From Halobellus salinus (GTDB taxonomy: Archaea > Halobacteriota > Halobacteria > Halobacteriales > Haloferacaceae): a stretch of 64,000 bases of DNA. The position numbers and the translations under genes were made by a program. A model generated the notes under the pieces. The model saw nothing but the letters and a program-made list of their open reading frames with translations, ran no database searches and was not told the origin of the DNA. The stretch is from contig NZ_BMOC01000007.1 of NCBI RefSeq assembly GCF_014646875.1, positions 1 through 64,000 of the forward strand, written 5' to 3'. Positions 2,597 to 35,712 of this stretch are shown one piece after another; the stretch's first letter is position 1, and every line of letters starts with the position of its first letter.

Positions 2597-2712
2597 AAAT
2601 TTATATGCGGAACCGCGGCCACCCCAGGTGTGACCTGACCGTCACCCCGCGCCGGGCAGCGATTGCTCGGCACGTCGGCGCGGGGAGCGAGTGTGCCGAC
2701 TGTTCGCCACGC
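2597..2712 (+). ncRNA. Candidate structured small RNA with its own TATA box (copy 1 of 2)
   Basis: A TATA-like TTTATAT (about 2600-2606) precedes a block that recurs at 35,576-35,712. The core is a perfect 10-bp inverted repeat, CCCCGCGCCG at 2645-2654 and CGGCGCGGGG at 2676-2685, enclosing a small AGC-GATT-GCT hairpin. The tail CGACTGTTCGCCAC is also shared with the other copy. No reading frame explains the conservation: both strands can be translated but contain no sensible start. In copy 2 one base of the stem changes to keep a G-U pair, which suits a folded RNA. Transcription from about 2626 is inferred from the TATA position. A DNA-level element is the alternative. Confidence 0.5.
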
Positions 2713-35546: not shown

Positions 35547-35575
35547 TTCGCGACTGTCGGGCAGTCCGGGCCCGG

Positions 35576-35712
35576 AGATTTATATACGAATCCGGGACCA
35601 CCCGGCCCGTGAACTGACTACGGCCCCGCGTCGGGCAGCGATTGCTCGGCACGTCGGCGCGGGGCGCGGGGCGCGGGGCGCGGGGAGCGGGAGTGTCGAC
35701 TGTTCGCCACCC
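35576..35712 (+). ncRNA. Candidate structured small RNA with its own TATA box (copy 2 of 2)
   Basis: TTTATATA at 35,579-35,586 is followed by the same block as at 2,597-2,712. The stem is CCCCGCGTCG (35,624-35,633) and CGGCGCGGGG (35,655-35,664); a core of about 33 bases is identical to copy 1, as is the tail CGACTGTTCGCCAC. Compared with copy 1, three additional CGCGGGG units (21 bp) have been inserted after the stem. The stem change C-to-T at one position converts a C-G into a T-G (U-G) pair. It lies between uvrA and a flavoprotein gene. Transcription is inferred, not shown. Confidence 0.5.

Follow-up and report, generated by a model that had tools for sequence, protein, structure and literature searches.

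A putative ribosome-engaging small RNA family of haloarchaea that joins a two-codon mini-ORF to an H-type pseudoknot

Closest described systems

Viral stop-codon readthrough and −1 frameshift signals consist of a stop codon, a spacer of 6–8 nt and an H-type pseudoknot located at the ribosome entrance. Two-codon minigenes, of which lambda bar is one, are a further point of comparison. Bacterial representatives such as the LEE1 leader and mg2 of axe-txe carry a full ORF of start, one codon and stop whose effect comes from engaging the ribosome and not from a peptide; this engagement affects RNA stability and can stabilize RNA in cis, while overexpression is toxic via peptidyl-tRNA release (PMC8708949).

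In haloarchaea, several small intergenic RNAs of about 70–111 nt from Haloferax volcanii, namely rancRNA_s194, Hts4 (PMC6104027) and sRNA_61 (PMC12482152), are associated with ribosomes, and H. volcanii sRNAs with ribosome occupancy but without detectable protein are an established precedent (PMC12482152). Both s194 and Hts4 associate with polysomes, s194 preferring the 50S subunit (PMC6104027), and s194 has been reported from BLAST searches to be confined to H. volcanii (PMC3956466). SHOxi and sRNA132 (PMC12482152, PMC6560208) are also intergenic haloarchaeal sRNAs, with regulatory functions.

The family described here shares with rancRNA_s194, Hts4 and sRNA_61 a small size and an intergenic location; unlike them, as far as their published descriptions can be compared, it combines a start-codon-stop ORF with a pseudoknot, and unlike s194 it extends across a whole order. 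Its likeness to the rancRNA class is suggestive only in the spacing of its first helix relative to the ribosome edge (PMC6104027). With the bacterial minigenes it shares the complete start-codon-stop ORF. Those, however, reside in leaders or phage transcripts and are preceded by a Shine-Dalgarno sequence, whereas here the minigene would stand, leaderless, at the 5′ end of a separate RNA, and a covarying pseudoknot goes with it. SHOxi and sRNA132 are target-specific single sRNAs, with no multicopy family or shared pseudoknot reported for them.

Structure, distribution and genomic context of the family

The window, meaning the whole 64,000-nt stretch analyzed (Halobellus salinus, assembly GCF_014646875.1, contig NZ_BMOC01000007.1, positions 1–64,000, forward strand), contains two related blocks at 2,597–2,712 and 35,576–35,712. 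Re-reading the sequence found both as a preliminary description had given them, including the shared tail, with a core of 33 nt identical between the copies; the 21-nt center of this core had no match in 100 shuffled windows. All features of these two blocks lie on the forward strand. The description had also proposed a 10-bp stem with a 21-nt loop in each block. The pairing holds (2645–2654 with 2676–2685 in copy 1; 35624–35633 with 35655–35664 in copy 2), as does the C-G to U-G difference between the two stems, but the element is not a simple hairpin, as this stem forms one of the two helices of an H-type pseudoknot. YCGGCAC, which makes up the 3′ half of the loop, can pair with a GTGCCGR motif situated a few to some tens of nt past the stem. 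In copy 1, helix P1 (2645–2685) encloses loop L1 (2655–2666) and the 5′ strand of helix P2, TCGGCAC (2667–2673), which pairs with GTGCCGA at 2693–2699; in copy 2, P1 (35624–35664) encloses L1 and TCGGCAC (35646–35652), which pairs with GTGTCGA at 35693–35699, one of the pairs being G-U. The conserved unpaired tail CTGTTCGC follows at 2700–2707 in copy 1, where the 3′ end of the RNA is predicted at or after it, and at 35700–35707 in copy 2. The additional CGCGGGG units noted in copy 2 were confirmed; they expand in tandem the loop L3 between the two helices (35665–35692) and are absent from the ortholog in the congener G004 (L108 vs L264), a private, microsatellite-like growth within the RNA loop.

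Covariation, a check that the preliminary description had proposed, gave strongly positive results. In each of the 19 full copies inspected, a change at the variable base of P2 is matched by one in its partner, and the pseudoknot is paired at 96.6% in 28 sequences, a value equaled by none of 500 shuffles. Among 52 diverse sequences from many genera, 94.5% of cells are paired, double-sided changes number 166 compared with 58 in shuffles, covariation reaches 0.504 compared with 0.157 (0/500), and all ten P1 pairs show compensatory change, while sliding the P2 partner by 1–3 columns destroys the pairing signal. Every position of P2 is paired in at least 98% of 152 copies, in which the first P2 pair is C-G (48), G-C (44), U-A (39), A-U (18) or G-U (2). 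With the weak outermost P1 pair excluded, G-U combinations outnumber A-C by 108 to 19, which identifies the plus strand as the folded strand. Nested folding of the two window copies is unremarkable (z of −0.44 and −0.02) because the program cannot model a pseudoknot. Given these covarying pairs across relatives, the element is almost certainly a structured RNA gene.

Other foldings were also considered. An inner loop hairpin (GGGCA/TGCCC) was rejected by inspection, since it is broken in several copies in which P2 holds, and hairpins upstream near the start codon occur in some copies inconsistently. The length of L3 ranges from 5 to 68 nt, and in Halobellus-type genomes it often carries an additional variable hairpin-like insert (L039, L040, L041, L042, L045), so the pseudoknot tolerates a third stem. 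A tail variant, CTGTCAGC, replaces CTGTTCGC in L012, L026, L069, L077 and L109, which are separate copies from separate genera and possibly a subfamily.

The two blocks, at first taken to be the only copies, belong to a set of about 20 by BLAST, or 29 by covariance model at E < 2e-5, in the 3.07-Mb genome of the window, and about 30 occur in G004. DNA searches returned at least 10 matches in 11 of 16 congeners and no copy in the remaining five (G001, G008, G010, G012, G016); in G012 neither covariance model detected one. A sequence from Halobellus rarus (L115) is the same as L023 of the congener G011, which makes Halobellus the probable genus of the window. These copy-less congeners have either lost the whole family or carry sequences that the searches missed. 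Among 392 genomes of the order, model R1 detected the family in 213 and model R2 in 223, covering 54 of 95 genera, with per-genome counts that are lower bounds and amount to at least 10 in many genera. All matches in a phylum-wide sample fell within this same order. Carriers named by a pattern scan include Haloferax, Haloarcula, Halobellus, Halobaculum, Halorubrum and Halorussus, and the few bacterial matches of that scan, which lack the rest of the element, were set aside as chance.

Comparison with Rfam 15, the other check proposed at the outset, covered ribozymes, riboswitches and snoRNAs among its families; none matched the window at gathering scores, and six loci with diverse copies gave no match even when E was allowed to rise to 1. 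The literature, searched by family, by sequence and for minigenes of haloarchaea, likewise contained no account of it. More than half of the sampled haloarchaeal genomes, among them members of Haloferax and Haloarcula, carry the family, yet it is not in Rfam. From sequence comparison, this is a real, selected, order-wide structured RNA family, undescribed as far as searched, and the lack of a detectable copy in several genomes, including that of G012, indicates a function that is not essential to all haloarchaea.

The positions of the copies are stable. By flank identity, 26 of 30 own copies share their position with a G004 copy, most with 80–90% nucleotide identity on both sides, although one of these (L111) looks decayed and is weaker evidence. 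Nothing matched among viral contigs or phage records, and one plasmid record of Halobellus limi matched, with no annotated feature beneath the match. The presence of some 30 dispersed copies per Halobellus-like genome could recall a mobile DNA repeat of the MITE, REP or IS-end type; however, such repeats would vary in position between close species, and here positions are shared, pairing is compensatory and the only match among mobile elements is that one plasmid record, which leaves this reading barely credible. Stable positions likewise exclude the case that the preliminary description had named as its refutation, a mobile repeat without conserved pairing. On this comparative evidence, the copies are genes that keep their places and are maintained by selection, not repeats that transpose.

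Regarding gene neighborhood, copy 1 lies between a gene for an XPD-type helicase and, on its far side, a DUF4112 gene, and copy 2 between uvrA and, on its far side, a gene for an FAD-dependent oxidoreductase. Both repair-gene identities stand as first given, but the suggested link to nucleotide excision repair does not. Other copies flank varied genes that are unrelated to one another, no copy overlaps a predicted gene, and among 30 uvrA loci scanned the element lies downstream on the same strand only at that of the window. With orientation taken from a simple home-made gene caller, downstream genes are co-directional in 14 cases and convergent in 15, and upstream genes are split 14/15 as well. 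These varied neighbors, the random orientation and the single uvrA locus in 30 led us to reject the repair association. A genus of another family (g86; L063, L083) likewise has a copy immediately after uvrA, which may reflect chance or ancient synteny. The same orientation data bear on a cis-acting leader, such as an attenuator, riboswitch or uORF for the downstream gene: some copies do lie within 100 bp ahead of a co-directional gene, but as a group the copies are not placed upstream of and co-directional with a gene, and this explanation is close to refuted. The absence of gene overlap and the 15:14 neighbor orientation suggest instead that the RNA is autonomous.

Promoter, mini-ORF and spacing

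The TATA box TTTATAT noted earlier was confirmed at 2600–2606 in copy 1 and 35579–35585 in copy 2. A profile of 150 copies aligned at the start codon displays C-G at −36/−35 (BRE) and TTTATA from −30 to −25, with position −1 a pyrimidine and position +1 a purine, an arrangement typical of leaderless haloarchaeal promoters; the published haloarchaeal elements are a BRE of CGAAA, a TATA of TTWT and a WW −10 element (PMC4983044). In accordance with this profile, the basal promoter of copy 1 comprises a BRE-like CGCAAA and the TATA box (2594–2606), with a T at −30 from the start codon, and that of copy 2 a BRE-like CGGAGA and the TATA box (35573–35585). Where the A/T-rich −10 element would stand, the profile contains CGSGRCCA at −16 to −9, with almost no T. 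In copy 1 this family-specific element, which replaces the usual WW element, is CCGCGGCCA at 2613–2621 (−17 to −9), and in copy 2 it is CCGGGACCA at 35592–35600. Between orthologs the promoter element is 78% identical, compared with 61–67% in adjacent segments. A genome pattern search for this type of promoter, allowing up to three mismatches, matched solely at RNA copies; a promoter common to protein genes was therefore rejected, and CGSGRCCA seems to be a promoter feature dedicated to the family. At L020, 1503–1560 (G000:C15), TATA plus CGCGGCCA stands alone with no RNA after it, upstream of an ORF followed by a MinD-like gene; this may be what is left of a decayed copy, or the same control may act there on a protein gene.

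The TATA box at −30 and the pyrimidine at −1 fit a leaderless start, and the transcript is predicted to begin at or very near the ATG/GTG, at 2630 in copy 1. The earlier proposal that a TATA promoter drives independent transcription of a new small RNA is thereby supported as a prediction from sequence.

Neither copy had been thought to contain a credible reading frame, a view that proved wrong, since both contain a start-codon-stop ORF that is conserved across the family. In the alignments, the text upstream of P1 is GTGACCTGA-like and readable as a start, one codon and a stop; in copy 1 it is GTG-ACC-TGA (2630–2638) and in copy 2 GTG-AAC-TGA (35609–35617). An ATG or GTG separated by no more than two codons from a TGA, TAG or TAA is present in 155 of 167 unique copies and in 150 of 160 copies of a second, deduplicated set, almost always with one inner codon. 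When copies are anchored on P2, start triplets peak at −16 from P1 (69%) and in-frame stops at −10 (69%); a second stop peak at −15 (46%) corresponds to the out-of-frame TGA inside GTGA. TGG never occupies the position that holds TGA, TAG or TAA (Fisher p of 3e-12, a guide and not an exact probability, as relatedness is ignored). Between the two species, the stop is swapped for another stop in 5 of 21 orthologous pairs, among them both window copies, whose orthologs read GTG-ACG-TAG (copy 1) and GTG-CGA-TAG (copy 2, in G004). The second codon shows no conservation and hence implies no particular dipeptide or tRNA. Variants in length stay in frame, as in GTG ATC GAG TGA, GTG GAG GAG TGA and ATG TAA (L141, L184, L186). 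About 6% of copies lack the mini-ORF, and some of these appear decayed; in the orthologous pair L109/L275 it is missing from both species.

Selection on the start and the stop is also visible in the identity between orthologs, which is 95% for the start codon and 85% for the stop, against 58% for the linker and 61–67% for nearby non-coding flanks, while the P1 strands reach 89% and 83%, the P2 strands 95% and 96%, and the tail 94.6%. A start, one codon and a stop are thus maintained together, as expected of a two-codon minigene, and the comparisons constitute strong evidence that translation keeps the mini-ORF, which is probably read by ribosomes. The GTGNNNTRA block might alternatively be a DNA signal, that is, a transcription-factor or initiator motif with no translated ORF, given that it sits at the expected transcription start and beside the conserved CGSGRCCA; but the use of ATG as well as GTG, of all three stops and never TGG, the stop-for-stop swaps and the frame kept by the few copies with zero or two inner codons make this very unlikely.

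The spacing between the mini-ORF and the pseudoknot is similarly constrained. The start codon lies 16 nt from P1 (9-bp core) in 106 of 150 copies, which places the onset of P1 at about +16/17, and the linker between the stop and the pseudoknot is 6–7 nt. This onset coincides with the reported edge of the initiating haloarchaeal ribosome, the initiation toeprint in H. volcanii being at +15/16 (PMC6104027). Unlike recoding pseudoknots, the family has no conserved downstream ORF: L3 lengths are distributed 45:64:43 modulo 3, so that no read-through product is under selection, and such a product was rejected because the frame across L3 is not kept.

Proposed function of the RNA

The best explanation that we can offer, with confidence evenly poised for and against, is a new, autonomously transcribed, ribosome-engaging small RNA family, whose transcription and ribosome binding we infer. 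Each copy would be an individual gene for a small RNA of about 78 nt, in which a haloarchaeal promoter with the CGSGRCCA element would direct a leaderless transcript from the ATG/GTG. In this transcript the 6–7 nt linker would join a two-codon minigene at the 5′ end to a GC-rich H-type pseudoknot, and CUGUUCGC would follow as the tail. Leaderless transcripts make up 72% of the protein-coding transcripts of H. volcanii (PMC4983044). Since the ribosomes of haloarchaea begin translation directly at leaderless start codons, this RNA should recruit one without further help. With the pseudoknot beginning at the leading edge of that initiating ribosome, at most one peptide bond would form before the stop codon and the knot are met at the mRNA entrance. 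The RNA might in this way park or briefly sequester ribosomes, possibly with drop-off of dipeptidyl-tRNA, and tune translation in trans, while the bound ribosome may also protect the RNA. Holding or cycling a ribosome on the RNA is proposed as the simplest purpose of the co-conserved start, stop, spacing and knot. As the main function, ribosome parking is a tentative assignment, somewhat less than an even bet, and the strong conservation of the unpaired tail and L1, which it does not explain by itself, speaks against it, as do the copies that lack the mini-ORF and the genomes in which no copy was detected. The wider proposal is that up to about 30 such RNAs per genome, order-wide, autonomous and sharing one promoter type, act in trans to control either the availability of ribosomes or initiation on leaderless transcripts; it is advanced with still greater reserve.

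Two other RNA functions would leave the mini-ORF a subordinate role. In the first, the RNA would be a trans-acting base-pairing sRNA, with the pseudoknot and tail as scaffold and with mRNAs recognized by the variable linker or L3, while the ribosome on the mini-ORF only stabilizes or licenses the RNA, in keeping with the stabilization in cis known for two-codon minigenes. The linker is indeed the least conserved part, and the variation of L3 length is what copy-specific partners would lead one to expect; nevertheless, a target seed should be conserved between orthologs, whereas conservation of the linker does not exceed that of the flanks, and the most conserved single-stranded parts, L1 and the tail, are the same in all copies. 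We regard this as rather unlikely. In the second, a protein would bind L1, the pseudoknot and CUGUUCGC, and the mini-ORF would shield the knot from unfolding by stopping ribosomes after one codon. The near-identity of tail and P2 between orthologs and the location of the stop codon just before P1 agree with such a role; loss of the start would shield the knot equally well, yet the start is kept as strongly as P2, and we consider protein binding with shielding unlikely.

If the ribosome-engaging reading is true, translation would be regulated by an RNA that brings along a site for loading the ribosome, and some of the enigmatic non-coding sRNAs found with haloarchaeal ribosomes may be explained. 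The anatomy predicts a ribosome on a one-codon ORF jammed against a pseudoknot, a direct and inexpensive prediction about leaderless translation. An orthologous locus in H. volcanii lies between a DUF gene (MGFPVSYYCPHCGAVVELERDGYLADKSVTPYPLEGW...) and a HAD phosphatase gene near rtcB, where the predicted start is the GTG of GTGCGTTGA.
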